Shown here: in pieces, positions 31,335 to 55,783 of the stretch
Numbering within the stretch: the stretch's first letter is position 1
Layout of the letters: each line of letters begins with the position of its first letter
NCBI GenBank assembly: GCA_032433595.1
Contig: JASWJB010000139.1
Span: 40,148-104,147 of the forward strand
Source of the DNA: Conoideocrella luteorostrata
Taxonomy: Eukaryota > Ascomycota > Sordariomycetes > Hypocreales > Clavicipitaceae
Reading direction: 5' to 3'
Length of the DNA: 64,000 nucleotides
Made by a program: the position numbers and the translations under genes
Notes under the pieces: generated by a model
Databases searched by the model: none
Told to the model about the DNA's origin: nothing
What the model saw: only the letters and a program-made list of their open reading frames with translations

Positions 31335-34300
31335 CTAGCTTTCCAAGTGTCCGTTCATTTTAGTTTCTTGCCTACAACACCCTTCAAGCAGAGAACATAT
31401 TTTTCTTACTTGGTCCGGTCGATGAACCCAACTGAAATGAGAGCCCTCCAGCGAAACCAGATCAACGATGTCTTTGTTCACAAACGTGTCTAGTCTATTC
31501 AAAGATGATTCAGCATACCATCGGTACAGTTGTTTTTGTGCAGCTGTACCGTGTGCGTCATCTGTCTCTTTTGCCTTGAACAACACCAAATGATCTGTAG
31601 ACGACTCCAGAATCCTAAATCGATCAGGCTCAGGCTTGTACATATAGTAAATATGATCAAGAACCTGCTCATCCTTGTAGCCGGCAGCTTCCGTGGCTCG
31701 TGGTATGTCAAAGTATGGATCAATCAAACCCAACGTACCGAGTCTCTCCCCACAACGAGCCAAGTGCTGAGCTATTTCCATGGCAAGGATACCGCCAAAA
31801 CTCCAACCAATGATGTGAAATGGCCCCCGTGGTTGCACGTTGCGCATGTGCGTTACGTAATACTCTGCTAGCTCTTCGAAGGTTGAGAGCGACTTGCTGT
31901 GACGGTAGTGATTGTTAAACACAATCAGCTTGCGGTTAGGTGACTCTTTGACGATGTTGTGGAAGTAGCTCTCAGCACCGCCTTCTCCTGGTGGAAGAAG
32001 GAACAGAGGCGGGCCATGTCTACTTTCATCGTCGAACGAGAAGAAGGGAGTAAATTCTTCTTCCCGGCTAGGCACATCTGGTAACTCAAATCCTTGACTA
32101 TTCACCCTCTCGATAAGTTCCCGGAGAGCAGTTTTCATCATGTAGAGGAGCGAATCAGTTGTTTTAGAGTCCCAGCGGCTTGCCACCTGGATGGACAGTC
32201 TTCCGTTAATAGCCCCAAAAGTAATATCAAGCATAGAGGAACTCCTATCTCGATCCTCAGAGCTGGTATATAAACCATGGGGAAGTTCATTTTCACCCGC
32301 GGCCAAGACCCATTCATCTTGCCGGCCGTGAACCTGATCTAAGCGACCCAAGTAATTGACGGTTACAGGCGGCAAAGAGTCATCGGAGTATCCATAACTC
32401 GGCCCATATCCAATACCGTGGTTTGGCACGCGATCAAGACACCGTTTCACGTTCATGACGCCCTGGACTAAATCCGTGACTTGTGGGATCTTGAAGGGGT
32501 ACATGCTGGTAAACCAACCAACTGTTCGGCTAACATCCAAAGACGGATCAACATTCTCCTCACGGCCGTGCCCTTCGATAGTCACAATGGTTGTAAGGTT
32601 GGCCATCAGCTTCTGTAGCGCAAAACCCACAGACACGAGAAGAATCTCGTGCATACCAGTACTAAGCCGAGGACAGCACTGTTGGAATAACAACATCGTT
32701 TCGTTGGTCGACAATTGATCTTCACACCGTATCATGGTGTGTGAATTATGAGAAAATATCTCAGCGGTCTCCATTGCCTCTGCTCTGATTCCGTCCCAAT
32801 ATTGTCTTTCAGAAGAGGACAGCGCGTAGTCTTGCACTGCATTACTCCACTGCTGAAAACTGCTGCTCTTCATTCCAAGACCAACGCCATGATATAGCGA
32901 CTGCAAATCCGACCTAACGATGTTCCAGCTGACTGTATCTATTATGAGGTGATGGAATGCGCACCACACTCGTGCTGAACCGTCTTGATAGCCATGAAGA
33001 TAGGCAATACAGAATAATGGTCCTGTTTCAACATTAAATTGGGATTGCCAACCGGATAGTGCTTCCTGTATATCGTCGGTGTTTTCAAGGTTGGTAACAT
33101 CAAGAAGTTTAATCTTAACTGGCTCACAATCCATAGGGAATGTCTGGACGTATCTACTGTTGCGTTTTTGGAGTCTCATACGCACAATGTCATGCCTGCA
33201 TTGGAGCATTGTTACAGCCTGGGCGAGCTTTTCAATATCCAACTTCGGCGTGCGGATGGTGAAGCAATGATTCCAGAATCCAGGATGTTGGAGCTCTTTT
33301 GACAGGAACCAGTCTTGAATAGGCAGCAGCGCAGCATCTCCTGCAACAAGTCCTTGATCTGCATTAAGAGGGGGTAGAAGTCTGCCATTGCTGTCCTTCA
33401 CCAATACGTTATCATGTACCGCTCTAACTGTCCTGTGGATGAAGATGTCTTTCACAGTGACTTTTAGGCCAAGTTGACGATGTATATCGCCAACTAGCTG
33501 CAAAGACGATATACTATCGCCACCATTGGTGAATAGATCGTCATCAATACCACCATGAGTCTTGCCAATTACGGCAGCCCAGAGTAAGCAGAGCTTTGCC
33601 TCGAGGACGTTTCTAGGTGCAACGTACGTATTTGTCTGTTCCCGATGGTTCATTACAGCCAGTGTTCTAGTGTCCAGTTTTCCATTCACTGTTACAGGTA
33701 GCGGACCGTGCAAGCAATATAACTTGCTTGGAACCATGAAAGATGGAAGAGTCGCCGCCAAGCTGGTTCGAACGTCCGACGGAATGATCGCAACACCATC
33801 TTTGAGGTTGTAGTAGCCTACAAGTTCGGTTGCTATTCGAGATGACGAGTCTTCTCTGATGCCTTGACTATAACTTGGCAGAACGGCGGCTTCTTTAATG
33901 CCTGGGATATTGGCCAGGGCGTTTTGCACTTCTGAAAGTTCGATACGGAACCCTCGAAGTTTCACTTGTTGGTCGCGACGACCAAGGTATTCGAGTCGGC
34001 CAGGTCCTCGGTATCGGACCAAGTCGCCGGTCTTATACATCCTGCCAAACTTGCCAGATTTGTTGAAAGGGTTCTCTATGAAGCGCTCATTGGTCAAAGA
34101 TTCTTGATTCAGGTAGCCTCTGGCGACGCAATCGCCAGCCAAGTACAGCTCCCCAACAGCATTGATTGGGACACGCTGCAGTCGATCGTTGAGCACGTAC
34201 ACCATAGTCCCACGCAGTTCATCGCAAAGAGCCTTTGTGAAAGCTGAGCCGTCTTGAAACGTAGTGACAAGATTGTATACGGTGGTTTCAGTAATACCAT

Positions 34301-37300
34301 AGGCGTTGTTGATAGGTCCTTTGAATTGTGACCGCATGCTGGCGTACTGAAAAGAGTGGAACTCTTCACCCGCTGCAGTAACCATCTGCAGTTGCGGTAA
34401 GCGAGATAGTTGGATTTGTTGCAGTACTGACGGTGTCCCACTCAGGTAAGAGAGCTGTTCAGAATTTGCTAGCTCATAGAAGCTTTCATGTGTCACACCC
34501 TCCTCGGGTGGGATAATTAATTTATTGCCGCTGAGAACGGACAGAACAATCTGCTCCACTGAGAAGTCAAAAACATAATTTGATAATAACAAAACGGACT
34601 GGGTTCCATTGGTGTCACCAAAGTAGCGCTGTGAAAGTGCTTTCTGCAGGTTAGCAACGCTCTGGTGCTCAATCATCACTCCTTTCGGCTTTCCCGTGGT
34701 CCCGGATGTGAAAATAACGTATGCAAGCACGTTTGAATCAACCCGTGGCAAAGTAAGATTGTCGTGTGGCTGGTTTCGAATATTGGAGATGACCTCCACG
34801 TCATCAACGACAAGTCGTTTCGTGTCTGCAGAGCATGACAGGTTCGTCAAGCAATTCTTCGTAGTGATGAGAAGCTTTGCGCCAGTGTCTTGCAAAGTAA
34901 AGTTGACTCGCTGTGCTGGATAGTCTGGATCTAGAGGCACATATGCGGCGCCTGCTTTCCAAACGGCCAGGATACTGATTACCATCTCGATGCTCTTGCT
35001 CAGCATGAGAGCAACGTGGTCACCGCTTTTAACGCCTTCGCCAGTCACCATCCAATGAGCCAATCGATTAGCCCGTTCGTTCAGATCGCCATACGAAATG
35101 CGTCTTGAACCTCCTTCGACGACAGCCAACTTGTGTGCATTGACATTTACTTGGCTCTCAAACAGTTCAGCAAGCGAATTTTCACGATCCGTCTGAATAA
35201 GGTCTGTCGTCTTGAATTGTGATTTTTCCGGCCACTGTTCAGTTGGCGCAAGCATTGATGAATCACGATCCGTTTCACCATCGGACATTTCTTGAAGAAT
35301 AGTTTGATACGATCGAAGAAACCCTGCAATAGTCTCTTCTTCGAAAAGGCTTGTGGCATAGTTGAAATTAACCAGCAAACCTGCATCTGCCCTCTCCTTC
35401 ACGGTGACATTCAAGTCAAATTTGGCAACGGATGAAAGTAAGGAAGCCGGATCGTACCGCTGCATGAAAGACTTGCGACTAAGCTCAGGTTTATTCAGCG
35501 CTTCAGTCTCCCAATTGAAGACCGCTTGCACGAGCGGATGGCGACTAGGATCATGTCTCTCGTTCATAAGTTTAACGATCTCTTGAAATGGCATATCCAT
35601 ATGTATCTGAGCGTCGACGAGATGCTTTTGAACGCTCGCAATCAACTTGCTGATGTCAGACTCGCATACATCAACCCTAAACGGAAGCAAGTTGACGAAA
35701 AAGCCAATAACGGACTCGTACTCGGCGCGGTTTCTATGTGAAACGGGGACTCCAATGACGATATCAGTCTGCATTGTATATACATTCAACAAGTAGCAGT
35801 ATGCGGCAAGCATAACGGTGTATAGGCTTGCCCCTTGCCGTTTAGCTAGCGCTCTGATCTCAGACACTAAATCTGAACCAAGAACGAGTTGTAAGTCGCC
35901 TCCTTGATAATCGAACTGAGCTGGCCGAGGTCTGTCGGTGACCAAGAATAGTGACTCTAGGCCGCTCAACTTGTTGGACCAAAATTCTGATAGAACTTGA
36001 TTTCTGTCTGAAGACAGATTTTGGTGGTGTTCAACTGCATATTCCTTGTATTGAACCCGAAGAGAGGGCAGGTTGATGGAATTATGGTGTCCCGCATGCA
36101 GCGCGTAATATGCACGCAGATCACTTTGGAAAATGTCCCAGGACCAGGCATCAAAGGCAGAGTGGTGGAATACAAAGCTAGCGTAGAGTGAAACGCAACC
36201 ATTTGTCTGCAACTGATGCATACACACCACGAAAGGAAGTTCGCAGTCGAGCCTAAAAGCTTTATTTGCAGACTCACTCATCTGACGCCGCATTTGGGTT
36301 TCAGAAGAAGATTGCAAAGTCTCAAGCTGGAACAGTTTATGCGCATCGTCTGCATCCAGTATTTTCTGATAGTGATGAGAGCTTTCGTGAGACCGAGTAA
36401 GCAAAGTGCGCAGAGCTTCATGTCTTGACAGAACCGAGCGGAGCGCTCGCTCGAATGACTCCAAACACAACTGGACATCGAGCTCTACCTGAATTGCAAT
36501 GTTGTACGCGCTGCCACCTTGATCAAACTCATGCAGGAAAAGAAGCCGCTCTTGAGCCGGAGAAATGGGGATGCTCATCAGAGACTCATCTCCCAACGGT
36601 GACACGGTCAGAGTCTCTGCTGAGCCACTGACAATCCAACGGGCAAAAGCCTCAATGGTTGGATATCGGAACAGACTGCTGACAGTTACCGACACACCAA
36701 GTGCCTTTGTGGCTGCAAATGAAAGCTTTGTACTTCGGAGACTGTCTCCACCTAAGGAGAAGAAATCACTGTAAATACTAATGCTCTCAACAGGAATCTC
36801 AAGCAGATCAGCCCAAATGCTAGCCAGCACTCTCTCGATTTCAGTGCGGGGCGGCACAACTTCATCTTCTCCAGTTTCATCTGGGACCGGAAGAGCCTTT
36901 GAGTCCAGTTTTCCACTCACTGTCACCGGGAACTTATCCATAGGAATCAGCCGTGCTGGTACCATATGCGATGGAAGTCGCGACTGCATGTACCGCCGTA
37001 TTGCTTGCGGTGACAACGACCCAGAAGATACATAGTATCCAACCAAGTACTTTTGGCCGTCAGAAACTCGGTCTTTGGCTAGCACAACGGATTGTTCTAT
37101 GTCCGGGTACGAAGACAGAATCGCTTCAATCTCCCCTAGTTCAATGCGCTGCCCTCGGATCTTCACCTGGAAGTCGTTTCGCCCGAGATACTCCACTTCT
37201 CCATCAGCTGCTTCGATCCAACGGACCAAATCACCCGTCTTGTAAAGTCGTGCATTTCGACCCTCCCGCCTCTCCTGCTCGCTCTGGAACGGATTGGCTG

Positions 37301-40300
37301 GGAACCGTTCTGCAGTGAGATCAGGGCGGTTGTGATACCCACGAGCTACTCCGTCGCCGCCAAGATAGAGCTCGCCAACAGCGCCGATAGGTACGCGCTT
37401 CATGTCGTCGTTAAGAACATAACTAGTGCTGTTTGCTACTTGTTTGCCAATACTCTTATCTGTGCGTCGCTCCGGGAATGGGTACAGACGCTTGTGAGTG
37501 GTGATGGACACTTCGGTAGGCCCATAGCCATTAATAACTAGACCTGAGAATGTCTCACGAATCTTGTCAAAAACTGGCTCACTGAAGGCCTCTCCTACAC
37601 AGTCAATTCGCCTCAAGTGGTCTCTGAAACGACCAAATTCGTACATAGATATGACGGAGGGCGTACCAGACAAGTACGTGACTCGATTAGTTTCAATGTA
37701 CTGGTACAGCCGTTCCTTGTCGCCTCGCATCTCGTCATTTAAAACGAGCAGTGTTTGTCCGTTCAGTAAGGCATCTGTCATTTGTTCCACGAAATGATCA
37801 AATACATAGTTTGAAAAGGACAAGATGACCTCGTCATCTGTATCTCTCAACCCAAATATCTTACTCAGCGAGACAGCCAAGTTAACAATTCCGTGATGTT
37901 CAACCATGACGCCCTTCGGTTTGCCCGTGGTTCCCGAAGTGTACATTACATATGCAAGATCAGTAGCATTACACGTCGATATGGGATGTGTAGAGCTTGA
38001 AGGGAGGTGAAGGGCCTTGTCGGATGGAATCACAGGGATAGTACTACCCTGAACAATCTTTGACAGTCGATCCATGTACTTCTTGTCTGCAATGACAGCC
38101 AAAGCTGAAGTGTCGTCCAAGATGTACTTGATTCGATCGTCAGGGTAGCTGGCATCAATTGGGACGTACGCACCGCCCGATTTCCACACGGCCAGAATAT
38201 TCGTAATCAAGTGTTCGCTCTTCTCAATCACAAGCGCAATCAGTTTGTTAGGCTTAATAGGCACCTTTTCCAGCAAGCAGTAAGCTAGTGCGTTCGCGCG
38301 CCCGTTCAGTTCCCGATAAGTCAACTTTATGTCCTCGTAGATCACAGCCACCTTGTCTGGTTTCTGCTGTGCCTCTGTCTCGAAGACAGAGTGAAGCGTA
38401 CCGCTGGGATACTCATCCTCAGTAGCGTTCCACTTGTCAAGCTGTTTTATTTGATCTGCTGAAAGATATTCAATATCGCGAATCGGCGCGTCAGGATTCT
38501 TAGCAATGTTTTGAAGTGTATCATAGACCGTGTGCAACAAGAAACTTATCGTGTCGTCGTTGAAGAGCTCCCGCGCGTAACAGATGGTAAAATCGCAGCC
38601 GTCATTCCCGTGTTCCTGCGCTATCACTGCCAGGGGGTAGCTGAGCTTCTCTGTCCCTCCTGCAATTTTGTACTTGAGCACCTCTTCATGTAAGTCTCTC
38701 TGGGATTTTTCCAAATTCGGATAATTTTCCAGCACGAAGAGCGTGTCAAAGAGACCGTGCTTGAGGTCGTCTTTGCTCAAGCGGCCAAGCTCCACGCTTC
38801 CTCGCGAGTTCATTGCGTTTACCTGACTCTGAACTTGTGAGATTGCATCCATGGCTGTCATATTCTGATAAGACGTATGGTCCAATACAAGCGGAAGTGT
38901 ATTGATGAAGAGGCCGATTGAGCGCTCAATGCCCTCAATAGGTAGATTGCGACCGGAAATGGTAGTACCCGTCACGGTATGGCTGCCACCTCCGTATGCG
39001 TGCAGCACGAGATGCCATACAAGTTGTAAGATGGAGTGCAAAGTAACTCCCTGGGCAGAGCATTCTTCAAGTAGCTTGTTCATCACGGCATCCCGTGGGA
39101 GACGGATGCTCTGCTGCCCTTGTTCTTGTATCTGATCGTAATCTGCCAATGGAACTTTGTAACGGCTAGCCTCGTTAAGCAGGGCATTCAAGTCACATCT
39201 TTCCTCAATTTGATTAACCTGACTAGCCCAGAAGTCCAGATGTGTGTCTCGATGAGCTTGGAGGTATTTCTGTGCGTGAATATACGCAGAGTCTTCGTCC
39301 AAGGACGGCTGGGTTCCATTCTTCAAGCATAAATATGCCTCGTGCAGGCGTTCAAAGAGCAATGGCAAGCTCCAGCCGTCCAAGATGGAGTGGTGACAGC
39401 TGAAAATGCAAGCCGAACATGATTCCGGAAGTTTGATGAAGTAAATTCGGATAAGAGATGCTGTCTCGAGGCGATAGCCTTCGCTATGATCATCTTGTCC
39501 TATCCTAGCGAGCAGTGTCTGAAGTTGCTCATGGCTTCGTACATGAGATGCCTCAACTACTCTCCAGTCCAGAGCTGATCTCGCGTCAACAACCTGCATG
39601 ACATTACATTCCCACGAGAAACGCAGTCTCAGTGCGGGATGCTGGCGGTGAACATGCTCCCAGGCTGCACGATAGCAGTCTTGGCTGATTGACACCCCGT
39701 AATGAAGGGTAGAGTGCATTATGTATGCGTCTGTTTGTTGTGTCTTTAGTGAATGATATACGAATCCTTGTTGCAGGCTATTTGCCAGGTACGAATTTTC
39801 TGACATGCCGCTCTCAACAACCGCTGTGCCATTTTGCACATCGCCGCCTAACCCTCGCTCTTCCTGCGTTCTAGGTCTTAACAAGTCTGACATATTTCGC
39901 AAGGACCTTGTTTTAAACACCTCCTCCAAGCTTATGCCTACACTTAGACTCTGTCGAACACGCGCAATGAGTTGAATGCACGTAATGCTGTGCCCTCCCA
40001 GCCGGAAGAAATTCTGCTCCAGACCTATTTTTTGAGACGAAATCCCAAGAACGTCTCCCCAAATGTCTGCTAGTCTCTCGTCCAGCTCACACCTGTATTG
40101 GGCTAACTCGGATGATGGAACTGCGATGTCCACGGTCGGTAGAGCGCGCAAGTCAGCTTTCCCGTTGATTGTGACTGGTATCACTGGTAATTGAACCAAC
40201 CGCGTCGGGATCATGTATCGGGGCAACTTCTTCTCCAAAAAAGAGAGGAGGTCATTCTCAGGTATAGTCTTCTTGTCGCAGACGAAGTATCCAACCAAAT

Positions 40301-42650
40301 GGTCTTGGGTCGTCTCTTGTCCAGCGCTCAGAAGCTTTTTAGACACGACCATGCTGGTTCGTACTCCTGGGTACAGAGCTAGTGTGGATTCAATCTCTCC
40401 GGGCTCGATTCTAATACCACGAAGCTTGATTTGGAAGTCGATACGGCCAAGGTACTCAACTTCCCCGTTGGGTAGCCAACGAGCCAAATCACCCGTCTTG
40501 TAAAGCAAGCAGTTCAACCCAGCTTTGTGCTCCCTTGCAGTCTGATACGGATTTGGCAAGAACTTTTTACGAGTGAGCTCCTCTCGATTCATATAACCCC
40601 TAGAAATACCCAAGCCACCAATATGAAGCTCTCCAGTGACACCAAGAGGCACGCGTTTAAGGTTAGCGTCCAAGATGTAGCACTTGACATTACGAACCGG
40701 ACGACCTAGACTCATATCTTGTCGCTTAGACGTAGGTTCAAACACATTCAGCGCCGTCACAAACGCCGACTCTGTGAAGCCATACTCGTTCAATATTCGA
40801 GCCTTGAAACGACGCCGCAGAGCTGCGTATCGTGAATCCGTCAAGTTCTCTCCCACCAAGATCATGCGCTTCAATGACGGGCAAGTCGTAAAGTCGTATT
40901 CTTGCAGCACTGACGCCGTTCCATTGATGTATGTAACCTTGTGTTTTTGGATGTAGGGCAGCAGTGTATTGGGGTCGAACTTTTCTTCGTCGCTGATAAT
41001 GGCCAGTTTATTTCCGGTTGTAAGAGCCATGAGCATCTGGCGTACAAAGGGCTCAAAAACGTACGCAGAAAACAGTAGGATGACTTCGTCGTCATTTCCA
41101 GCAACGCCATAGCGGACAGAGAGATCAGTAATGCTGTTGACAACGCTAGTGTGTTCTTTGAAGATTCCTTTGGGGAATCCCGTCGTGCCTGATGTGTACG
41201 TCACATATGCGAGCTGGTTGCTCGCAAGTGGAAGATGTGTCAAATTCCCTGTTGAACCAGGCAATGACTCTGAAGATAGACGACTCAGCAACGGCTCAAG
41301 GGCAATTATTTCTATCTGTCTATTTCCCACGATCTCGGCTTGTACTCTGTGAGTATGTGTCTGACTTGCGATAATGAAACGTGTTTTCACGTCGTCAAGT
41401 ACAAACTGGATTCGCTCATTTGGATAAGCAGGGTCAATTGGTACATGGGCAGCACCAGACTTCCAGACCCCAATAATTGTTTCAATCATCAGCTCACTCT
41501 TGTCCAGGAACAATCCTACCAGTTGTTCAACCCCAATGCCCAATGAGCATATGTAATTGGCCAGCCTGTTGGCTTGCGCATTGAGTTCTCGGTAGGAGAT
41601 GCGTTTATCGCCGCAAATAATAGCGATCTTGTCGGGACAGCGGGTCGCGGCTTCTTCGACGAGATGATGCAGTCTCTTTTGAGAAGGATAGTCGCCGTCC
41701 GTGTTATTCCAAGCCTCCATTTGTGCAAGTTGCTCTTGTGGGAGGAGTTCAAGCTCCCCCAACAGTTGTGTTGGCTCTGTAGCTACCTCCAGTACTTTGC
41801 GCAAGGCGCCGAGGAAGCTGTCCACAACCATGGTGTCAAATAACCTTTCGGCATATCTCATTTTTAGAACCCATTCCGACTCGCCGAATCGAACACCGAG
41901 CATGAGAGGGAAGTCTGGCAACGGAGCCACATTGAATTCATCATCGAACAACACAATGAGGTCCAGGAGCTCTGCCCGAACAAGCTCACCAGGAGCAATT
42001 GAAGTGAGGTCCTCGTTATCAGACTGGGCAAGTTTCTTCATTTCTGCAATAGCCGTAGACATGTACTTTTTATTCCTGCCAACGTGGCCCATAATTGTAG
42101 GGACGACTTTCCAATAGCAATTTCCTGAGGACGCATCTTGCTGCTTGGTGAACGATGCTGTGATGGTGTGGGTTCCGTTGCCAAACCCTTTAAGCATCTG
42201 ATGCGTTGCTAACAGTAGAAGCAACTCCCTGGATATTTGTTGTTTGGAGCATGTGGTTGTGACTTTCCGAATAATTCCATCCGTGACAACCACTGTTCGC
42301 TCCTTTCTGGAGAGTGCTTCTCCATCCATTCCTGTTGAGGCCAGCTGGTACTTTATCGGCTCCCGAGTTAAGCCGCTCATGTCGCATCTTTCCGAGATGC
42401 TTTCTGTCTCAAGTTTCCATTTCTCGAGACCCGTAGAAGGTATCCAGCATTCAGAACGAGCAGTTCCATTTTGGTGCTTGGGTTCGGTCCCCCCCTTGGA
42501 GCCGTTCATCGCATTTGTCCCATTTTTGGCATGGGCATGGCCATTGGTCTTTGTGCATCCGTTGGTACCCATATTAGAGACCGTTTGGTGAACAAAGCCA
42601 CTCCGATAGTGCAATGCTGCGGGTGAATATGTCTCTGAAGGAGGAGCCAT
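31335..42650 (-). CDS. pcbAB: ACV synthetase, three-module NRPS
   Basis: 3771 residues, one exon, close to known fungal ACV synthetases. Modules run A1-T1-C-A2-T2-C-A3-T3-E-TE. Core A motifs are at about residues 483, 1570 and 2650. Phosphopantetheine serines are at about 889 ('GGHSI'), 1968 ('GGDSL') and 3044 ('GGDSI'). Condensation 'HHSILDG' is at ~1088 and 'HHSAFDA' at ~2164; epimerisation '[10 protein letters not shown]' at ~3235; thioesterase 'GWSFGG' at ~3617. The A-domain codes I read are EPRNIVEFVK, DHESDVGITK and DFESTAAVYK, those of ACV synthetases for L-alpha-aminoadipate, L-cysteine and L-valine. It makes the tripeptide LLD-ACV, the first cephalosporin intermediate. It shares a 1.9-kb divergent promoter with pcbC. 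No break or missing catalytic motif was seen. Confidence 0.97.
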
Positions 42651-44523
42651 ATTGTCTTCTGGCGATTTTGCGCAAGATCATGCAAAGAATCTAAGATGAA
42701 AGCTTCCGTTCTGTAAACCCGCTTGAGTATGGTGAATACGCTCTCCAAAAGAAAAGACTCTAACAAGAGTTCTTGGCCAACTGATACATTTATGGGGCGA
42801 GGAGGCCAGTGAGAGAGACTGGCCGTCAAAAGTTTATAGCATACACACTTCCAGTTGCGGCTCAACTCGTCCATGTCTTGAACACACATACACACACGCT
42901 AGCCAATATCATACGTCTCCTCTCCTGCCAAGCATTAAGCCCCCCGATTAGTTATTTCGGGAATTGTTTGTCAGAGTTGAATAACAAGGTGCCGCAATGT
43001 TCCATCAGATCACCACAACATAATCCCCCTATCGGCAAAACTGAGCCCCTGGCCGCCTCCGCTGAAGCGTGATACATAGACGGCGAACTGCCGCGTTCAC
43101 TAGTCGGCTATCCAGACCTCTACGTTGCCTGGATTACAGCATGCTCGTCAGGCTATCCCGATGGCACCAATCAGGTAGAGTGAAGCTATCTGCTTGAGCC
43201 TCGGCCGAATGGAAATAATAGGCAGCTAACCCAGATGTAACCACGTTTCGCCGCCACTTACACGTCTTACGTAGACGTTCCCTCCCAGAACTTGTATTGT
43301 AGACCCCGAATAGTTGATTAGACCGGCGAGGGTGGTCCTCTGCGGCGATGCACAGGTGCCACGCGGCAAGGAGACGAAATCATGTTGGCTCACAACTTAG
43401 TTCCACAAGATTAAAGGTCTTCTATCCACAATGGATACCATTTCTCTTGCCTGCCGGCGAAATTAACCTTGTAGGCTCCCCCTCAGATGTAACCATTTAT
43501 AAAAAATACGCTCTGGAGCTAAAAGGGTTCTGATGGCGCTAAACAGCCATGTGTTTCGGGGTTACTACTGGACGTGCGTCGCTCTTGGTTCAACCCGCTC
43601 TCAATTCTCGCTTGTGTGCCCAGTAAATTTGGCTGTTTGTGGGAGGTGGTGCTAAAATGCCAAGTTGCAAACCTTGCCGAGGTGGAACAGCGTAGCATCG
43701 TCGCTAGAGCTGAGATGCAAGTGGTAACGACGGCGATATTCCAGGCTACAAGTACGAAGCACGGCCAATCAGCGCTGAGCTTTCTCATAGGCGCATTGGA
43801 ATATATACGCTCGCACGGAAACTGTGCATGGGTGAGATTGCATGGGGGGCGATGCACGTTGCAGATGAGGCGGACCACCGCTCGTGAGAGACGGATCGTC
43901 GCTGCGGCCAACTAACTTGTATTCCTCACCCGTGGCTTCAGCCAAGAATCCTAGTGGGCTTCAGCACGGCGCTGCAAATATTGAGTTCTCGGCGCAGAGG
44001 ATTCAATTGCATTTTGTATGTTCAATGGTGCCGAGTAGATGAGGAACTTTGCCTACAATAGTAATGACGTGACGCCTCGCTGAGAATCGAGACAGCTGGA
44101 AATGCTGACGGTGCGTGTAAGTGAAACAGCATCCAATTAGTACTATCGTCAGTGTGCTCAACCGAGAGGGGTCTGGTCGGCCCTTTCGAGAATAGTAAAA
44201 GATTGTACCAAGAGAGGCCATAAAAGATAATACGACGTCAACGCGAAGGTAGTAGGACCTACAGCGGGTTTCCAGGCACGGCAAGAACTACATCCATCGA
44301 GAAGTATAAATGGAGATGGTCTGTCTGGAGGAGGGGGTGGTGGCAAGCATAGCCAGAAACTGCATTTAAACCACACCAAGTATTGCAGAGAACTGAACCA
44401 CTTCAATCATCTTGGTTCGTTTTTGTAACCCTCGTCTTGTCCAGATCAGACATTATTTCACTTTTTCCGAGTACCGTACAACTTGCTGGATCCTCAATCC
44501 CATACCCAACAGTCCATATCACC
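42651..44523. promoter_or_regulatory. Bidirectional promoter pcbAB / pcbC
   Basis: 1873 bp between two divergent ATGs, longer than the roughly 0.9-1.2 kb known for the Aspergillus, Penicillium and Acremonium counterparts. CCAAT boxes lie at 42903, 43167, 43765 and 44133, and an inverted one (ATTGG) at 43795. PacC-type GCCAAG sites lie at 42927, 43659 and 43941. TATAAAT at 44305-44311 faces pcbC. In Aspergillus and Penicillium the same intergenic region is controlled by a CCAAT-binding complex and PacC; here this is inferred from motifs. A 113-residue open frame (43574-43915) is considered chance. Confidence 0.65.
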
Positions 44524-45519
44524 ATGGGTTCCGTTCCCGCCGCCAACGTCCCCCGAATCGACATCTCTCCTCTCTTCGGGGACAACCACGACAAGAAACT
44601 CCAAGTAGCCAAAGCAATTGACGCGGCCTCCCGAGACACAGGCTTCTTCTACGCCGTCAACCACGGCGTCGACCTGCAGTGGCTCTCGTCTGAGACCAGA
44701 AAGTTCCACATGTCCATGACCCACGAGGAGAAATGGGACCTCGCCATCCGCGCTTACAACCAGGAGCACCAACACAAGATCCGCAGCGGCTACTCCCTGT
44801 CAATTCCCGGCAAAAAAGCAGTTGAATCGCTCTGCTACCTCAACCCCTCATTCCGGCACGGGCACCCCCGCATCGAGACTCCAACTCCCTTACACGAGGC
44901 TAACGACTGGCCGGACGAGGCCAAGCACCCTGGCTTCCGGGACTTTGCGGAGTCGTATTTCTGGGAGGCCTTCAGGGTCTCCAGCGCACTTCTTCGGGGC
45001 TATGCGCTTGCGCTCAATAAGGACGAGGATTTCTTTGCTCGTCACTTCCGCAAGGAGGACACGCTGTCGTCGGTGGTGCTGATCCGGTATCCCTTCTTGG
45101 ATCCGTACCCCGAACCGGCCATCAAGACAGCCGACGATGGCACCAAGCTGAGTTTCGAATGGCATGAGGATGTAGACCTCATTACTGTTCTGTATCAGTC
45201 CGACGTGCAGAATCTGCAGGTCAAGACCCCGCAGGGCTGGCTGGACATTGAGCCAGATGATACGGGCTATCTAGTCAACTGTGGCAGCTACATGGCGCAC
45301 ATCACCGACAACTACTATCCCGCTCCGATCCATCGCGTTGTATGGAGGAATGAAGAGCGTCAGTCTCTGCCTTTCTTTGTCAATCTCGGCTATGAGGACA
45401 AGGTAGAGCCGTGGGATGCTGCCGGGAAAGGTGTCAAGCCGGACCGAGAGGCAACCACGTATGGGGACTATTTGCAGAATGGCCTGCTGGGCCTGATTAA
45501 GAAGAATGGGCAGACCTGA
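44524..45519 (+). CDS. pcbC: Isopenicillin N synthase
   Basis: 331 residues, one exon; the ATG at 44524 matches the conserved family start ('[20 protein letters not shown]') although the frame is open upstream. It is a non-haem iron oxidase that closes the beta-lactam and thiazolidine rings of ACV using O2. Iron ligands are His214, Asp216 ('EWHEDVDL') and His270 ('APIHRV'). The substrate-carboxylate motif is 'RQS' at 279-281, and Arg87, which anchors the aminoadipyl side chain, is present. The C-terminus 'KKNGQT' is the usual one. Residue 91, normally the second Tyr of 'AGYYL', is Ser here ('SGYSL'). Cytosolic. It is divergent from pcbAB and convergent with cefD2. The lack of introns is normal for fungal pcbC. 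Confidence 0.98.
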
Positions 45520-46266: not shown

Positions 46267-47490
46267 CTACAGTTTTGCCCCCGGAACAGCATGCAGAAGC
46301 CCATCCGAACCCTCAAAATAATGAACATCCTTCGTCCACTCCATCCATTGCAGCAGCGTTTCTGCGCCCCCAGACCCCTTGTCGATAGTACCGCCCATCC
46401 AGCCGCCCTGAGAGTTAGGTATAGGCTTCCCCGGTGTCCCGGCCAGATGAACCGGAAGACGCTGTTCATAGCCCGCCTTCTCCAGTTCATTTTGCCCCAG
46501 GACCGGTGTGGCACAACCATCAGTGTTATCAAAGATGGCCTCCCATTCTTCTCTCGTCTTCTGTTTGAACTTTTCGGCAAAAATAGCCCTCAAAGTCGGC
46601 CAATTGCACTTTTCGTCTCTGATAGGTAAACCAGCCGCTTCAAGCCCCAGGCCACGTAAAAACGCCAGGTAAAATTGTGGCTCCAACGCACCGACGGCGA
46701 AATACTTGCCTTTGTCCTTTGTTTCATAAGTCGTGTACCAGGGACATCCACCATCAAGTACATTCTCTCCTCGGGGGGATGCCCAAAACGGTGTCTTAGA
46801 AGCCAACCGTGGGAAAGTGGCCAGATAGGCTGACCCATCCACCATGTTGGCCTCAACTACCTGACCTTTGCCAGTGACGCTTCGAGATATCCAAGCCATC
46901 AGAACGCCGACGAAACACAAGAGACCTCCCCCGGCAAAATCTGCAAGAAGATTGGCGGGGGGGTATGGATTCTCGTGCGACCTCCCCAGCATTGACAGGA
47001 CGCCAGAGACGGCAAGGTAGTTGATATCATGACCTGCCATGCTCTGGTATTTGCCATCACGACGGAATCCAGTCAGTCGAGCCACGATTAATCGTGGGTT
47101 ATGCCTCAGTAGAACCTCACTGGGTGATAGCCCCAGACGCTCAAGAACGCCGGGGCGGTAGGGATCAATCAGAACATCTGCGCTTGATAAGATAGATAGT
47201 AGAATAGCCTTGGATGAGGGTTGTTTCAGGTCGAGGCATATGGAGGATTTGTGTCTTGCTAGAATGTCGCCCTTTGGGGAGCGCGGTCCGTCGATACGCA
47301 GCACCGAGGCGCCATAGTCGGCGAGCAGCAGCCCACAGAAGGGTCCTATATACGCTGTGGTGTGAGATTGTACCGGTCTTGGGCTCAGTCATTGGGGTCA
47401 CGACGAACCTGGTGCAAGGCCAGCCAACTCCACTACGCGGAGGCTCGATAACGGAGAGGTTGAAGCCATGGACTCTGAGGTTAGTTGCAT
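46267..47490 (-). CDS. cefD2: Isopenicillin N-CoA epimerase (AMACR-like, CoA-transferase III fold)
   Basis: Two exons, 47490-47409 and 47345-46267. The 63-bp intron (GTTCGT...CAGCGTATATAG) falls inside the conserved '[20 protein letters not shown]' block; 386 residues, or 379 if the second ATG (47469, better Kozak) is used. It belongs to the alpha-methylacyl-CoA racemase group: 'AGHDINY' (general-base His) and 'LLADFAGGG' (Asp) are present. In A. chrysogenum CefD2 epimerises isopenicillinyl-CoA to penicillinyl-CoA, the step leading to penicillin N. The C-terminus 'PGAKL' is a PTS1-type peroxisome signal, in line with this step being peroxisomal. It works with cefD1 and lies 3' to 3' with pcbC. 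Confidence 0.92.
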
Positions 47491-47817: not shown

Positions 47818-48960
47818 GTAAGGCAGCTTTTCCCGTAAGAACCGGCTAATATATGCATCCGCCTGGTTCGTCTCTACAAAATCAATTCACGCCCCCGCGT
47901 GTCTCAATAATGCGTAGCTCACCATCTGATATATGGCCCGACATTTCTGTACGCTCCTCCGGCGAATACAGGTCATCCGATGCTGCGCAGATTATCAGCG
48001 TGGGCTGCTCCATCAACCGCACCGCGTCCCGCATCGGAGCTCGACCCGACTCCTGCGACTGATGCCCTGCAATTCTAGCTTCAGGGGACACGGCAATATA
48101 GCAGTTCGCATCGGATGTCGTCGCAGTTATTTGCGATTGGTAGCACAAATGAGACAGCAGAGAGGTGATTAGATGAGCCACGCGCGGTGGTGATACTGCA
48201 GATGCGGCAGTGGTAGTAGAGCTACCATTGCGAGATCGATCTGCGTCACCATGCCGGCTGAGAAGCGCTCATCGAGAGAGAGCCCTCTTGCTCTTGTAAG
48301 TAAGATATGCGAATTTGCGGGCAGCCTCGAGCCCGCACGGCGTGGTTGTCGAAATGATACTCAGCGCCTTGGAACTCTACATCACCCTACATTGCATCTA
48401 GGTCTCAACTAGGCCACACATCATCCGCTCTATCTGCATGATGTCGCACGGGGCACGATGGTCTAGACATAAGACGGACCAAAGAAAGCCCATTCAAGCG
48501 TGTTGCATGCCACCCATGGAGTTGCCCATCAGGGAAGCGATTTGTCGCAGCTGAGCTCGTCAAGAACTAGCTTATGAATGCTAATATTACCCCATAAATC
48601 AGAGTGTCCTCTTTTCGACAGAGAGAAAAAGGGGGGGGGGGGGGTAAATCAACGCACCGCACATGGTCCCAAATCGTTACAAGTGGGACTTTGTGGCCAT
48701 ACCAACATCGCATACCGCTATTGAAGCATATGATCAAGAATCGAGACGCATCGAATGATTTTCTATCTTTATCGAACAGGCTAGGTCACCACACTGCAAC
48801 GTCGGAGCTGCTTGTCAGGGTATGGCAGAGAACAAGGCAATTGTCTCGAGACGGCCGGAGACGGCCCCCACGACTTGTACGCAACGGGCACATTGTACGA
48901 GACGATGCCAGACTCTAGCGTAAAAAGACGGACAGTGAATCATGCTCTGGTTCGGCACCA
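47818..48960 (-). pseudogene. cefG: Decayed acetyltransferase gene, cefG relic (deacetylcephalosporin C acetyltransferase)
   Basis: Reading the minus strand in shifting frames gives homoserine-O-acetyltransferase-like blocks in the right order: 'FTLESG...YNVPVAYKSWG' (~48933-48868), 'SRDNCLVLCHTLTSSS', 'FDASRFLIICFNS', 'YGHKVPLVTIWDHVR', 'IHKLVLDEL', the nucleophile elbow 'GNSMGGM' (48526-48506), 'LEWAFFGPSYV', 'TIVPRATSC', 'LEAARKFAYLTYKSK', 'DERFSAGM', 'DANCYIAVS', 'QPTLIICAASDDLYS'. Stops lie at 48786-48788, 48463-48465, 48430-48432, 48421-48423 and 48409-48411. Frameshifts occur near 48549, 48493, 48265 and 47893, and the last has lost the catalytic His region. Part of the segment after 'FNS' is deleted. 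An intron at 48657-48581 (GTGCGT...ATTAG) still has usable splice sites. It is divergent to cefEF, the arrangement of cefEF/cefG in A. chrysogenum. Confidence 0.88.
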
Positions 48961-50047
48961 AGTGCGCAAACGGGCCATCTGACTCGACAGACACGGCTAG
49001 CAGTGCGAAGGAAGCATGTCCCAGGAGTGCAATGGGTATCCAAGGAAACAAAGAAAGTGTATCTTGTACGTGAGCCTATCAATTGAATAGAACAAATGAT
49101 TCCCAAGCCAATGCCAAGCCAACAATCCACCAAACAGCCTACAACTAGTTCGGTGGGCCATGCTCCATGACTTTGTCGTCGGGTTGCACTCGGGGTGGAA
49201 TCACTTCCAACTCCAGTCTACAAGCATAGTTCTACAACTAAGTAGTTATAGCATAGTTCGTATGCCCAGCGTTCCGGCAACGCAGGCTGGGGTTCCGGCA
49301 GTGGCTTACTTCTCACACCTTGCAAACACATCGTATCTCCCGATTCCAGATATGGCTTGCTGCGCGGTCCCAACGGCGAATTACAAAATCGACGGGGTAA
49401 TTGGTCGCGATGGTCCGTTCCCAGCAGCGACCGGCGATTTGGGGGCCATGCAGCGGCATCTATTGTGCCACATGCAGCCTGCCACTTACATCACTAGATC
49501 GTGGCTTGTCTGCGACCGACTGTCAGCACGTAGTAATTAGCTGCTGCCCCAAGCAGTCATTGGCCTACTTGACTGTTGCAGAAGGCTTTCCTGTTAGTTT
49601 CTAGGCTATTCTCGGGTGTTTTGATACTTCTAAGAAGCTTTGATGGACAGCAGGCAACTAAGCGATGTTGCACTGCAGTATTTCCGTGTCTTTGTAAAAG
49701 TCCGTGACGATACGGTGTATTACATGTCACATAACGTGCTGTATGGTGCAGAAAAGGAGAAATGATACCCTGGATATTCAGCGTTAGGATGAACGGGTTT
49801 GTTGCATTGCATTATGCAACGCATATGTCAATCTCATAAATGGTGGCATTCAAGCAGGGCTCAGACAGATCGTGAGGTCCGCAAACATCCGGAATTTGGT
49901 GCCCCCTAGCAACGTTTTGTGTAATTCACCTGCCTCCAATAAATTTCAAATCATTCCCTTTGTTTGCAAACCCACACAGAAATCATCATAAAGAACCATC
50001 AACTAAAAATTTTAAAAAAATAAATAAATAAAGAATTAAGAACAAAA
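48961..50047. promoter_or_regulatory. Former bidirectional promoter cefG relic / cefEF
   Basis: About 1.1 kb between the 5' end of the cefG relic and the cefEF start. The stretch just before the cefEF ATG (50007-50047) is A-rich (AAAATTTTAAAAAAATAAATAAATAAAG), as in efficient fungal leaders. An open frame at 49160-49540 has no family pattern and is not called. Confidence 0.45.
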
Positions 50048-50992
50048 ATGGCAGAAAAAGTCCCGACCTTCAACCTCCAGGACCTCAAAGCAGGCCACCA
50101 CCACGACTCCTTCAAAGACTGCCTCACCAAAAAGGGCATCTTCTTCCTCTCCAACACCGGCCTCACAGACCAAGACCACGCCTCCGCCCGCCAAACCTGC
50201 ATGTCTTTCTTCCAAACCGCCTCCGAGGCATCCAAGAGAGCCGTCACGCTGCCCGACCGCAACGCGCGCCGCGGCTTCTCCGGCCTGGGGTGGGAGTCCA
50301 CCGCCGTGGTTACCGAGACGGGCCAGTTCTCAGACTACTCGACCTGCTACTCCATGGGGGTCAAGAACAATCTCTTCCCCGACGAGCAGTTTGAGCGAAT
50401 CTGGCAGGACTACTTTGACAAGATGTACGCGGCAAGTCAAGAGACCGCGCGGGTGGTGCTTCAGACGGTAGGCGCAGGGGAACCCGTCGGTGGGTTGGAC
50501 GACTTTCTCGACTGCGAGCCGCTTTTGAGGCTGCGCTATTTCCCGGAGGTGCCTGAGGAGAGGGTCGCGGAGGAGGAGCCCCTGAGGATGGGGGCACACT
50601 ATGACCTTTCAACGATTACGTTGGTCCATCAAACAGCCTGTCAGAACGGGTTTGTCAGTCTGCAGTGCGAGGTGGACGGGGAGTTTGTAGATTTGCCAAC
50701 CAAGCCTGATACCATGGTTGTTTTCTGCGGAGCGGTAGGCACGCTGGCGAGCAATGGGCAGATCAAGGCGCCGAAGCATCGCGTCAAGGCACCCGGTCGG
50801 GAGCACAGGCTTGGAAGCAGTCGTACATCTAGTGTGTTCTTCTTGCGACCAAAGCCAAGTTTCAGCTTCAACGTGCCACAGGCGATTAAATGGGGGTTTA
50901 ACATTCGTATCCCTACTGATACGGCCACGTTTGGGGACTGGCTGGGTGGGAACTATGTGAATATGAGAAGAGACACTGCTGCGGCAGCTTGA
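50048..50992 (+). CDS. cefEF: Deacetoxycephalosporin C synthase/hydroxylase (expandase/hydroxylase)
   Basis: 314 residues, no intron. It is a 2-oxoglutarate Fe(II) oxygenase that expands penicillin N to deacetoxycephalosporin C and, in the bifunctional fungal form, hydroxylates it to deacetylcephalosporin C. Iron ligands are His184 and Asp186 ('GAHYDLS') and His244 ('APKHRV'); the 2-oxoglutarate Arg259 is in '[12 protein letters not shown]'. Long identical-looking blocks with the A. chrysogenum enzyme include 'RNARRGFS', 'TAVVTETG' and '[10 protein letters not shown]'. Trp82 and Met306, which I recall being linked by mutagenesis to the hydroxylation activity, are both kept ('GWEST', 'YVNMRR'). 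The protein ends six residues after 'MRR', without the ~18-residue Ala/Pro-rich tail of A. chrysogenum CefEF. Cytosolic by family. Confidence 0.95.
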
Positions 50993-51119
50993 TATATATG
51001 ATACAGCGCACTGCTTGTAACTATTTGCTAAGTTCTTAAAGTATCATGCTTTTGCTGAAAGGAAGAACCCCGTACAATATGTACAAAGAAGCGAACGAGT
51101 CTAAGTAATATATATGCTT

Positions 51120-52751
51120 TTATAGTTTCATCCGGTATCGTGGGCTCGTGCGGATGGCTTCTCCGTATCTAATAAACAAAAAGGGCACGGGAATCAAAGC
51201 GACGGCAACAAACCCCAGAGTGGAGTTGCCCCATCCAAGGCCTAAGTTGTCGTAAAGAGGAGCTCCTGCTAGGGGGATGAATGCTCCAAATAGGGACCGC
51301 AGAATCGACGTTGCGGCAAGAGCAGATGCTGCGTACAAGGTGTACGCATCTACCAAATACACTTGGATTGTCATCTGATGACCCGTTAGACTCCTTCACA
51401 ACAGAAAGTTTGGGTGTAATGGGCGGCGACATACTAATGACATGTTTAGGCCAATGCCGAGCAGTGATGTGGCGCAGATAGGCACAATCCAGTGAACCTG
51501 GTAGTACGTGGTCCATCCGTAGATGAAAAAGCAAGCAGGTATACAGAACGCTGCAGGAATCATCAATGGCAGACGGTATTCTGGCTTCAGCTTGTGTCCA
51601 TTCGCTTTGCGCATCAGTATTCGGTCCGACATCTGCCCAAATAAAGCATTTCCAATCAATAGACCACACGCGATACCAAGATAAGCCAGTCCCGTTGCGC
51701 CAACTGAGAAGTGGTAGAGTTTTCCAAACACATTGGGTATCGTAACAAATAAAAGGAACTGGTACGAGTATACCATAGCAATGAAGAGGGAGAAGAGAAA
51801 TACAATGGGCGATCGAAACAACAGAACTAGCGGCCGGCGGAGCGAACGCACCATTCTCTCTCTCGGGCTGAGATTGCTCTCCAATGCAGACCTGAGGTTA
51901 AGGTTCCCCGTCTCACATCGCAACCGACTGACCTTGCGCTGGAGCAAGACGGGGGCGTATGTCTCTCGGACAAGAATGAAGAACAAAACAGTGAAAACGG
52001 CAGACTGCAAGTAATCGTCAGTTGAATACAGCTCTAGGAATCAAAATGCTTTTCCAAACTCACTCCAATCGTCACAACCCAAAACACCCATCTCCAACCC
52101 TTCGCCCCGGTAAGATACCCTCCCGCCACAGGTCCCACAGCCGGACCGAGGAGCGGTCCAAATGTCCATACGGCCATAGCAAATCCTCGCTCTTCCTGAA
52201 TAAACATATCTGCGACAGTTGCACCGCCTATGTTCAGCACAGCTGAGGCTTCCATACCTGCCAGCATGCGGAATATAATCAGAGCAGGGAGATTCGGACT
52301 GAGCGCACAGCCCAAGGTGAACAGCGTAAACAGCACATTGGTGACATGATACGGAATCAACCGGCCGTACATCTCGGACATTGGTGCGAGAATGAGCGGT
52401 CCAACCGCTAGGCCAATATTATAGACACATACTATCATAGAGCTGAGGACGGAGGAAGTATTGTTAAACTCAACCATGGCGTCGTTTACACCCGGGGCGG
52501 AAATTGACGAGCCCAAGGCACTGGGGTTGAGCAATCAGCATATCCGCCGTATAACTTGTTCGTTAATGGAACGATCCTAAACAGACTTACACAACAAAAG
52601 TCATTGCCGCCAATGTAAATACAATTGACCATTTCTTGGCTGCAGGCCAATTGATGGCATTTTCGGGGTCATTTGGCCCAAAGTCGACAATGGACTCTTC
52701 ATTTTCTGTATCCGACGAAATGGCACCCAACTCTGCTGAGCTTGAGGTCAT
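51120..52751 (-). CDS. cefM: MFS transporter, DHA1 type, CefM-like
   Basis: Four exons: 52751-52591, 52520-52064, 52004-51435 and 51374-51120. Introns of 70, 59 and 60 bp all have GT...AG ends; 1443 nt in frame, 480 residues, about 12 membrane segments. N-terminal 'DFGPNDPENAINWP' followed by 'TFVVALGSSISAPG', plus 'APMSEMYGRLIPYHV', 'GRLI' and 'GPVAGGYL', are typical of fungal DHA1 drug:H+ antiporters. The A. chrysogenum cluster encodes CefT (longer, export), CefP and CefM (about 480 residues, next to cefD1, linked to moving penicillin N out of peroxisomes). Length and position directly downstream of cefD1 on the same strand favour a CefM-like role. The symbol is by inference; a general exporter is possible. 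Confidence 0.65.
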
Positions 52752-53476
52752 AATAATAATGTGCGACTACAAGATATATCGACATGAGGAAAAGAATTCG
52801 CAGTCTTTCAACAGTCCGGGCACCCGGGTTATTGTTGGTGAACTCCCCAAGACTTAACCGACGAAGACAAGCAGGCACTCGGCTCCATCTTGGACACCTG
52901 GAACGGAGTAATACACTCGGCCGGTTAGCATTAGCGAGAGCATGGGGTAGCACAACGCCAAGGGAATAGTTATCGGATGCCTGATTGTAATGTTCCATTA
53001 TTATGATGCAGCCACCTGCATCCACCAGGGGGTGTGGCAGCCCCATGGACGGTTGGGCCGCTCGCTATTGGCTTGACTGAGATCTAATCTGGGCCGTTGC
53101 AGGGTCGCAAATCTAAAAAAGCAATTTGACCTTCTACTTCGGCTAGTTACGGAGTGACTACGGAGTAGTGGCGTAGTTGATACAGATGCTGAGTTTGCCG
53201 ATGCATTTGCCGGCGAAAATGGCACAGCTACTTTCGTGACGGGCTTGCATTCGGCCGGGCTTATGCTGGGCAGTCAATTGTGGCAGATTATTCCGTGTGC
53301 TAACTGAAGCAACAAGTCATACTGTTCTATTCTTGAGCACTCACTCACTCACTCACATTTGCGCCAATCAGTGAAAAACGTTCTTGTTCTACTGCGTGTC
53401 ACAGGGGCAATCTCCCAGACAGCTCTGTCTAGTCGGTGCCATTCAGAATTGATGATTGCCATAACAAATAGCCTCA
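52752..53476. other. Intergenic between cefD1 and the MFS gene
   Basis: 725 bp holding the MFS promoter and the cefD1 3' flank. It contains two TACGGAGT motifs 11 bp apart (53148 and 53159) and a short (ACTC)n run at 53338-53356. Confidence 0.45.
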
Positions 53477-55783
53477 TCAAATGCGAGCCCGCAGCTGCGT
53501 CAACTTATCCCAATCACCTTGTGTAAATGCAACATACTTGGCCGATCCAGTTGGCAGCCAAAACAGCCTATCCCGCTTCCCATCCGGAACTCTAGTCCCC
53601 AGGGCTCGAGGGTCAACTCCTTCATCCCGCAGATGCACTTTATTGTGTTTATGATTATCAGTGGCCATGCTCCCAACTCCTTCCCGGACTCGCAAGAATA
53701 CCGGAACCGCATAAGGCGGCAGTTCCTTGCGAAGCAGAGTTGCCACGCTGGACCAGTCGAAAGTATCTGCATTTCCGTCATTCAAGGCGATTGCGGCGCA
53801 GCCAGCTCGGCCGTCATGAGAAGGGATCTTGACTCCGTAGACATTGGCTTCTGCGATGGATGGATGTGTGCCAAGAACTTGAGTGACTTCTGTGGTCGAG
53901 ACGTTTTCTCCTTTCCAGCGATATGTGTCGCCTGAATGAATGTGTGAAAATTAGTACTCTTGTAATGCAAATGGAGCTATTATAATACGCACCTAGCCGG
54001 TCCATAAAGAACCAGTGCCCATCCGCATCCCTTCGAAGGGCATCGCCAGTCCGATAGAACAGATCGCCTTTCTCAAAGACATTTTCTATTAGCTTCTTCT
54101 TCGTCGCCTCATCAGCTCCGTAGTATCCTGCCCAGGCTTGACGAGATGCCAGCTTGACGAGAATCTCCCCGCCCTGCTCGTATGGCAGTCGCTTGGCAAA
54201 TCCAGTGTCAGGGCTCCTCCAGATGTCCCCGGTCTCCGCATCAATTTTTACCGGCATGATCTGTTCATGATATTGACGACGAAGGAGCCACCCATGATGG
54301 CCGATAGCACCAGTGCCATAGCCGCTTCTGTAAAATTTGACAAGAATCATAACGCCCTCCGTGCTGGAGTAAAATTCTCCAATTTCCGATATTCCAAAGC
54401 GTTCCTTTCGAAAATAAAAAAAGTTAGGGAAATGCTTGACAAGAAAGCTATCAGCCGGGGAGCGTTGGTGACCACTTGTACCTGGAACCTAGACCACAGT
54501 TCAGGACTCAGCCCATTGCCCCATACCAGCCGTATTTGGTGCTTTCTATCATTCGATGATGACGGAGCCGAGAGTAAGTATCTGACAAGTTCGCCGACTG
54601 ACTTTGTTCTCAGCATGATACTTCAATCCATCTCGAAGATTGAGTATTACTCACCATAAACAAAGATCGTAGATTTGCTGTCAATGCAATCTTGCCAAAA
54701 TCGGGAAAGGGAGAATTTCGGAGCCACAGCAATTGATTGGCCACCCATCAGATCGTTCATTACTGCAAGTCCACCAGTGCCGTGATACATGGGAATGCAG
54801 AAATACGTTCTGTCGCCTCCGGGACCGGGTTTCTGCCCAAACGACTTTGGAGAAGTGGAAGCCGCAGCATAATTTCGATGAATACCTAGTGGCGCAGCCT
54901 TGGGCAGACCAGTGGTCCCGCTGAAACATATTCATGAATCGAATTACTTTTTGTGCAAGTTGAAGGGGGTTCTGCATACCTTGTATACATCAGAGCGAAT
55001 GGCAACATCCTCGACGAGTCGTCAAAACATGCCGTACCGGGCCGGCTTGTAGGATATTGATCAATTTTTCCCTTTAACCCATCATCCAGCAGAATTGGCT
55101 GGACGCCCAGATCGCGCAGCTCCTTGTCGGAAGCCGAAATACGAGAAACACAGTCGGATGCAGAGTCGAAGATCAACAGTCGAGTGCCTGATATCTTGAC
55201 ACAGTGCAGCAAGGCCGCAGAGGCAAGGTTGTAATTGATCAATGCCGGCGCAGCACCAATTGACAGCAACGCCAGCCATATGAACACGAAGTCGGGGGAG
55301 TTGTACAGGTAGACGCCAACATACTCGAGAGGTTGGACTCCCAGGTCCTGGAAATAGTGACCATATTGGGAAACGCGCTGATATGCTTGTGCCCAGGTAT
55401 AAGTTCCCTCTCGGGACCAGACGCATTGCTCATTCGGCTGTCTGTGAGCAGCAGCCTCAAACAAGAAGTATCCAGAAGCCTTCTTGGCCTTGACTGTGCT
55501 TGAGAATTAGCATCTAAGGATGGTGAAGGAAATGACACTACTTGTGCGGCGGCAATGTGGTTCAGTCCAGACTTACGTGCACTGGAAAGATTTTTTTCGC
55601 CTTGCTTGGTTCGCGACAGAACGCTTAAGTCCTTACGAACATGCAATTTAGCATCCAGATAAGCCGTGGTGGCTGCGACACCTCCAGCGACAGCCAGCAA
55701 GCCGGTCGAAGCTTTGAATGGTGTCGATGTTAGTGGCGCTTGCGACAGCCTATAGGGAAGATGGCAGTAATACTTAGCGGCAT
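53477..55783 (-). CDS. cefD1: Isopenicillin N-CoA synthetase (acyl-CoA synthetase, FATP-like)
   Basis: Seven exons: 55783-55774, 55711-55577, 55493-54980, 54920-54655, 54597-54482, 54404-53993 and 53931-53477. Six introns of 57-83 bp have GT...AG ends; 1908 nt in frame, 635 residues (A. chrysogenum CefD1 is about 640). The first coding exon is only 10 nt; no ATG exists in the long frame itself, and the 62-bp intron with CACTAAC branch joins 'MPLT' to 'STGLLAVAGG'. AMP-binding motifs are 'YTSGTTGLPK' (~residue 218), 'EFYSSTEG' and 'YRTGD...DRLGDTYRWKGENVST'. In A. chrysogenum CefD1 activates isopenicillin N as the CoA thioester for CefD2. An N-terminal hydrophobic stretch fits very-long-chain acyl-CoA synthetase relatives. 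The C-terminus 'RARI' is a weak PTS1-like end. Confidence 0.9.

Follow-up and report, generated by a model that had tools for sequence, protein, structure and literature searches.

A cefG-like pseudogene next to cefEF in the joined cephalosporin gene cluster of Conoideocrella luteorostrata

Were the early and late genes of fungal cephalosporin biosynthesis once neighbours, and was cefG, the gene of the last step, already among them? In Acremonium chrysogenum (Hapsidospora chrysogena) the early genes are placed on chromosome VII, and cefEF and cefG on chromosome II (or I) (PMC7183595, PMC11719821). The genome of the insect-infecting fungus C. luteorostrata (Clavicipitaceae; assembly of 46.4 Mb in 620 contigs) holds members of both groups at one locus. 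In our window, the whole 64,000-nucleotide stretch that was analysed (contig C139, bases 40148-104147), the order across positions 31335-55783 is pcbAB, pcbC, cefD2, a decayed cefG, cefEF, a gene of the major facilitator superfamily (MFS) and cefD1. An initial annotation, made from the sequence alone, had listed these seven features side by side and contrasted them with the two chromosomes of A. chrysogenum. All seven are found where it put them, and the contrast agrees with the two papers; what it passed over is more informative, namely where the cefG relic lies and which way it points.

We consider it probable that the locus is a working-looking joined cluster with a dead cefG, and that cefG came to lie with cefEF before the ancestors of Clavicipitaceae and of A. 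chrysogenum diverged. A joined cluster as such is not new: it is in print for C. luteorostrata (PMC12352038) and for Pochonia (PMC8954384). What is new is the cefG pseudogene inside it, at the place adjoining cefEF, which conflicts with a late recruitment of cefG. Searches of open-licence literature turned up no earlier report of a cefG pseudogene, and the sole mention of a pseudogene in PMC8954384 refers to another gene.

The relic proposed by the initial annotation is borne out, and it extends beyond what a single open frame reveals. Its open-frame match covers CefG residues 323-420 (E 1.3e-12), and the acetyltransferase model TIGR01392 matches 47879-48337 and 48684-48872, with internal stops. 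A frame-tolerant alignment to A. chrysogenum CefG runs near full length, from 48933 to 47836, with 163 of 334 aligned residues identical. It scores 556, compared with 33-48 for twelve dinucleotide shuffles, 37 for the plus strand and 31-45 for eight control strands (four other stretches, both strands). The best CefG-guided reading carries 7 stops and 10 frame slips, counts that vary with the penalties chosen. The segment GNSMGGM around the presumed nucleophile serine is retained. In the open frame 47882-48268, a valine occupies the position of what we take to be the catalytic histidine, and the frame ends one residue later. With its stops, slips and lost histidine, this is no functional cefG for cephalosporin C. 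The relic lies on the minus strand, head-to-head with the plus-strand cefEF, 1114 bp separating its matched 5' end from the cefEF start.

Does it descend from CefG or from the related homoserine acetyltransferase Met2? The genome has two other intact-looking genes of the homoserine-acetyltransferase type, the nearer of which, L010 on contig C85, is Met2-type with a long linker. Aligned to the relic region, L010 scores 391 and the other gene, L009, 70; part of the difference between 556 and 391 is the penalty for gapping the Met2 linker. Identical aligned residues number 155 of 379 with the fungus's own Met2, against the 163 of 334 with CefG. The linker counts 42 residues in the relic, 45 in CefG and 97 in Met2. 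Of 100 columns that distinguish CefG from Met2, 38 show the CefG letter in the relic, 21 the Met2 letter and 41 neither (one-sided sign test on 38 versus 21, p 0.018). Where the outgroup (2pl5) agrees with Met2 (20 columns), the relic sides with CefG in 10 and with Met2 in 3; where it agrees with CefG (17 columns), the counts are 7 and 5. A tree unites relic and CefG in a single branch with support 88/91. The CefG reference consists of printed parts, residues 1-59, 296-311 and 442-444 being missing, and the exon junction of the own Met2 is approximate; the relic stretches in the column and tree tests were chosen by us and read the same under CefG and Met2 guidance. By these comparisons the relic is moderately nearer to CefG than to fungal Met2, and its descent from CefG is probable, not certain.

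The other members of the cluster (Table 1) look intact. The divergent, intron-free neighbours pcbAB and pcbC are arranged as expected of a fungal cephalosporin cluster. PcbAB has its carrier serines, its thioesterase serine and three HHxxxD motifs, and both oxygenases, PcbC and CefEF, have the metal-binding and the 2-oxoglutarate-binding motif; the roles of these residues are our assumption. Among solved structures, the top match of PcbC is isopenicillin N synthase (IPNS) of A. nidulans (chain residues 3-331, E 4e-168), that of CefEF is deacetoxycephalosporin C (DAOC) synthase (E 2e-122), and that of CefD2 is alpha-methylacyl-CoA racemase (E 9e-85). NCBIfam has no family available for CefEF or PcbC. 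CefEF is 71% and CefD1 65% identical to the H. chrysogena proteins. In the assembly cefEF has one strong place; three further matches reach 26-27% identity.

The exons of cefD2 (47490-47409 and 47345-46267) leave a single early intron, which PMC8954384 gives as a feature of the fungal gene. Racemase family and early intron together place it as cefD2, so that both genes of the fungal two-gene epimerisation, cefD1 and cefD2, lie inside the cluster. All exon borders of cefD1 are GT-AG. Its spliced product is 100% identical, over 99% of the query, to a C. luteorostrata protein at NCBI, whose model of the gene is longer (728 versus 635 amino acids). The C-termini AKL of CefD2 and ARI of CefD1 resemble what we take to be peroxisome signals, and thereby match the known peroxisomal epimerisation. 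The MFS gene has GT-AG borders and an MFS_1 match (4.9e-44). Its position adjoining cefD1 and a published label (PMC12352038) make it a candidate cefM.

Adjacent cluster genes are 127 to 1873 bp apart. The initial annotation had seen no foreign genes between them, and for the part checked this stands: none was recognised in 31335-55783, where ten open frames in the gaps have no Pfam family. GC content at third codon positions (GC3) is high in pcbC and cefEF, against 0.50-0.55 in the rest of the cluster and in three flanking genes, which would fit, but does not prove, a bacterial origin of both.

Table 1. Features of the joined cluster, in positions of the window.
Feature	Position	Strand	Remarks
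pcbAB, ACV synthetase, 3771 amino acids, single open reading frame, no intron	31335..42650	-	three AMP-binding (A), three carrier (T) and three condensation-type (C/E) stretches, one thioesterase (TE); motifs intact
pcbAB-pcbC common promoter region, 1873 bp	42651..44523	.	5 GCCARG (PacC-type) matches (raw count)
pcbC, isopenicillin N synthase, 331 amino acids, no intron, GC3 0.72	44524..45519	+
cefD2, isopenicillinyl-CoA epimerase, 2 exons, 386 amino acids, C-terminus AKL	46267..47490	-
cefG relic, deacetylcephalosporin C acetyltransferase pseudogene	47836..48933	-	about 7 in-frame stops and about 10 frame slips (varying with penalties), catalytic His lost
relic-cefEF gap, 1114 bp, head-to-head	48934..50047	.	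1 GCCARG match; no second genome copy found
cefEF, DAOC synthase/hydroxylase, 314 amino acids, no intron, GC3 0.72	50048..50992	+
MFS transporter, 4 exons, 480 amino acids, cefM candidate	51120..52751	-	position and published label
cefD1, isopenicillin N-CoA synthetase, 7 exons, 635 amino acids, C-terminus ARI	53477..55783	-

What would such a cluster make? PcbAB would form the tripeptide δ-(L-α-aminoadipyl)-L-cysteinyl-D-valine (ACV), and PcbC would close it to isopenicillin N. In peroxisomes, CefD1 would activate isopenicillin N and CefD2 would turn it into its epimer, penicillin N, with an intermediate of the pathway probably carried by the MFS protein. CefEF would then expand and hydroxylate penicillin N to deacetylcephalosporin C. 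Because cefG is a pseudogene, the final step to cephalosporin C would be lost with it: the pathway would stop at deacetylcephalosporin C, which the sequence predicts as end product in place of cephalosporin C. That cephalosporin C is still made through another acetyltransferase, or that the cluster is silent and nothing is made, we find unlikely. Two homoserine-acetyltransferase-like genes do exist elsewhere in the genome and the cluster has been called intact in print (PMC12352038), but the closer gene, L010, has the long linker and the look of a housekeeping Met2, and the remaining pathway frames are open. In a biocontrol candidate, the relic revises the published picture of an intact cephalosporin C cluster.

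When did cefG come to lie beside cefEF? The relic is CefG-like and stands head-to-head beside cefEF in a joined cluster; this makes it most likely that the two genes were united before the lineages split. We lean towards a common ancestor of Bionectriaceae and Clavicipitaceae with a full-pathway cluster that included a head-to-head cefG-cefEF pair. The late cluster of A. chrysogenum would be this piece, moved out as a unit; the C. luteorostrata line would have kept the place of cefG and then lost the gene, leaving Clavicipitaceae with deacetylcephalosporin C as end product. Whether the joined state is ancestral or fused had been left open by the initial annotation: the evidence favours ancestral, which is already the published view (PMC8954384).

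The published model differs over cefG. According to Fierro et al. 2022 (PMC8954384), Pochonia retains pcbAB, pcbC and cefEF together (given after Martin and Liras 2019), whereas in A. chrysogenum cefEF moved out of the cluster, its new location being the most likely point at which cefG was recruited. Under this model the relic would go back to a Met2 duplicate recruited independently beside cefEF, or to a later transfer out of an A. chrysogenum-like donor. The reported absence of cefG in Pochonia and Madurella (PMC8954384) speaks for such a course, as does the moderate strength of the bond between relic and CefG. The relic nevertheless resembles CefG of A. chrysogenum more closely than the Met2 of its own genome, has a CefG-like linker, and has the same cefEF neighbour as A. 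chrysogenum cefG, judging by locus numbers printed two ways: cefEF is ACRE_042800, and cefG is ACRE_042790 (adjacent) or, elsewhere in the same paper, ACRE_042680 (PMC11719821). The excerpts of PMC9712332 mention only the promoter regions of the pair. We regard a late recruitment as doubtful. If cefG instead joined cefEF early, as we prefer, the relic serves as a fossil marker by which the recruitment of cefG would predate, not follow, the move of cefEF. In A. chrysogenum itself we take the two genes to be divergently oriented as well. The published scenario becomes testable, in the cefD2-cefEF interval of each Clavicipitaceae genome.

Several points weigh against this early union of cefG and cefEF. 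The preference for CefG over Met2 is moderate (88/91 in the tree; 38 to 21, 10 to 3 and 7 to 5 in the columns), its margin in score is partly a matter of linker length, and it comes from one CefG and one fungal Met2 set against a heavily damaged relic. The adjacency of cefG and cefEF in A. chrysogenum is taken from the twice-printed locus numbers and from the title under which reference lists cite a paper of 1992. With cefG absent in Pochonia and Madurella, extra losses are needed. Gene order in the A. chrysogenum early cluster, including that of cefD1, cefD2 and cefM (inferred from locus numbers in the excerpts), differs from that of the joined cluster. No cefP, cefT or cefR was recognised adjoining the cluster, no sequence search having been aimed at them. 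Finally, a quick cefEF tree (55 of 120 listed rows) nested Hapsidospora within Clavicipitaceae (unstarred, 88-92). The transfer of late genes that this quick tree suggested was dropped as an idea: the nesting is gone in the careful 28-row tree.

The trees of cefEF, pcbC and cefD1 draw on 120 listed matches per protein, out of 196 for cefEF, 206 for pcbC and 4862 for cefD1 (the last a quick search). The careful cefEF tree of 28 rows places the CefEF of C. luteorostrata inside a clade of seven species-labelled hypocrealean rows with five further rows (100/100), in which Clavicipitaceae stand on one side (81/99) with one further row among them. In the careful pcbC tree (39 of the listed rows), five Clavicipitaceae rows stand on one side (99/96); an approximately unbiased (AU) test on pcbC (p 0.0012) took four of these, leaving out Claviceps purpurea, and its rejection reflects only that set. 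In a quick cefD1 tree (35 of the listed rows), the 11 Clavicipitaceae rows share a branch with a single metagenome row. Hapsidospora lies outside Clavicipitaceae in all three.

Linkage is supported in two of the seven other fungi among the listed cefEF matches. Pochonia has pcbC and cefEF on one contig of 5,360,579 bases, and Claviceps maximensis has cefD1 and cefEF on one of 43,691 bases; these calls are read from equal contig base counts, and the same contig does not mean adjacent. In C. citrina and C. pusilla the cluster genes fall on different short contigs, and in Arachnomyces on different contigs. C. digitariae shows no partner gene among the matches listed, the partner rows of H. chrysogena carry no contig value, and Pochonia cefD1 is not among the 120 listed cefD1 matches.

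A secondary fusion, in which the ancestor had its early and late groups apart and the C. luteorostrata line rejoined them, finds some support in the position of cefEF, which separates cefD2 from the MFS-cefD1 pair and implies an insertion or rearrangement relative to A. chrysogenum. The same-contig state in Pochonia and C. maximensis, together with the clustering reported for Pochonia (PMC8954384), makes it very improbable. Three gap stretches (42651-44523, 47495-50047 and 52752-53476) also have only self-matches in the assembly, in a search that skips very common words and so does not disprove repeats in them. A misassembly of two loci is scarcely credible, even in a short-read, Illumina-only SPAdes assembly (PMC12352038): the window is free of N, the gap stretches have no second copy within the reach of the search, and Pochonia is reported to be clustered too (PMC8954384).

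The searches returned some further relatives. The eurotiomycete Arachnomyces sp. PD_36 has a CefE-like protein (P0119) that is not among the 28 careful rows; in the quick cefEF tree it shares a long branch with P0044 (95), apart from the hypocrealean clade. This may be a second transfer; cefD1 of the same fungus is on another contig than this gene. Ustilaginoidea, two Metarhizium and Moelleriella (P0243, P0250, P0251, P0257) have cefD1-like proteins at 69-75% and are missing from the best 120 of 196 cefEF matches, which points to a loss of cefEF or another use of cefD1. IPNS-like proteins at 56-62% are labelled as from a lichen fungus, a nematode, a fly and a Mortierella relative (P0155, P0164, P0167, P0213). 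That of Claviceps purpurea (P0154; 63%) has a long branch and an odd letter make-up, and is perhaps decaying or changed in function.

Just outside cefD1, at 56269-56850, lies a repeated element whose pieces of about 110 and 148 bp occur on at least 35 other contigs (40 of 227 candidates scored). It is split by a 313-bp stretch 100% identical to C41:47635-47947, perhaps a recent insertion. Farther out, 470 bp at 57611-58080 are 91% identical to C387:34590-35058 and overlap a small open frame (57331-57723) with no Pfam match. To the left of the cluster (18311-30000), the neighbouring genes encode a urea amidolyase and a regulator of the Zn2Cys6 type. Between 27 and 30 kb, a urea-permease look noted by eye is unconfirmed, three open frames there having no Pfam match. 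At 7710-11349, two adjoining minus-strand frames with SesA, NPHP3_N and ankyrin domains resemble a fungal NOD-like receptor (NLR) gene, possibly a single gene with an intron.

How does the locus compare with known systems? For C. luteorostrata ARSEF 14590 (47.39 Mb, 864 scaffolds, GC 49%), PMC12352038 describes a cephalosporin C biosynthetic gene cluster, called intact, with pcbAB, pcbC, cefD, cefEF, cefM and an isopenicillin N-CoA synthetase; this is almost certainly our locus. The legend of figure 1 in that paper labels the isopenicillin N-CoA synthetase cefG; this activity is that of cefD1, and the true cefG is the pseudogene between cefD2 and cefEF. Early versus late genes are not discussed in the excerpted section on this cluster. 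Pochonia chlamydosporia also has pcbAB, pcbC and cefEF clustered, its cefEF and pcbC being 82% and 85% identical to ours, but its cefG is reported absent (PMC8954384) where C. luteorostrata has a relic. A. chrysogenum shares the same enzymes and the linkage of cefG to cefEF; it differs in having its genes on two chromosomes, an intact cefG, and cefP, cefT and cefR beside the early genes, according to the excerpts on that fungus.

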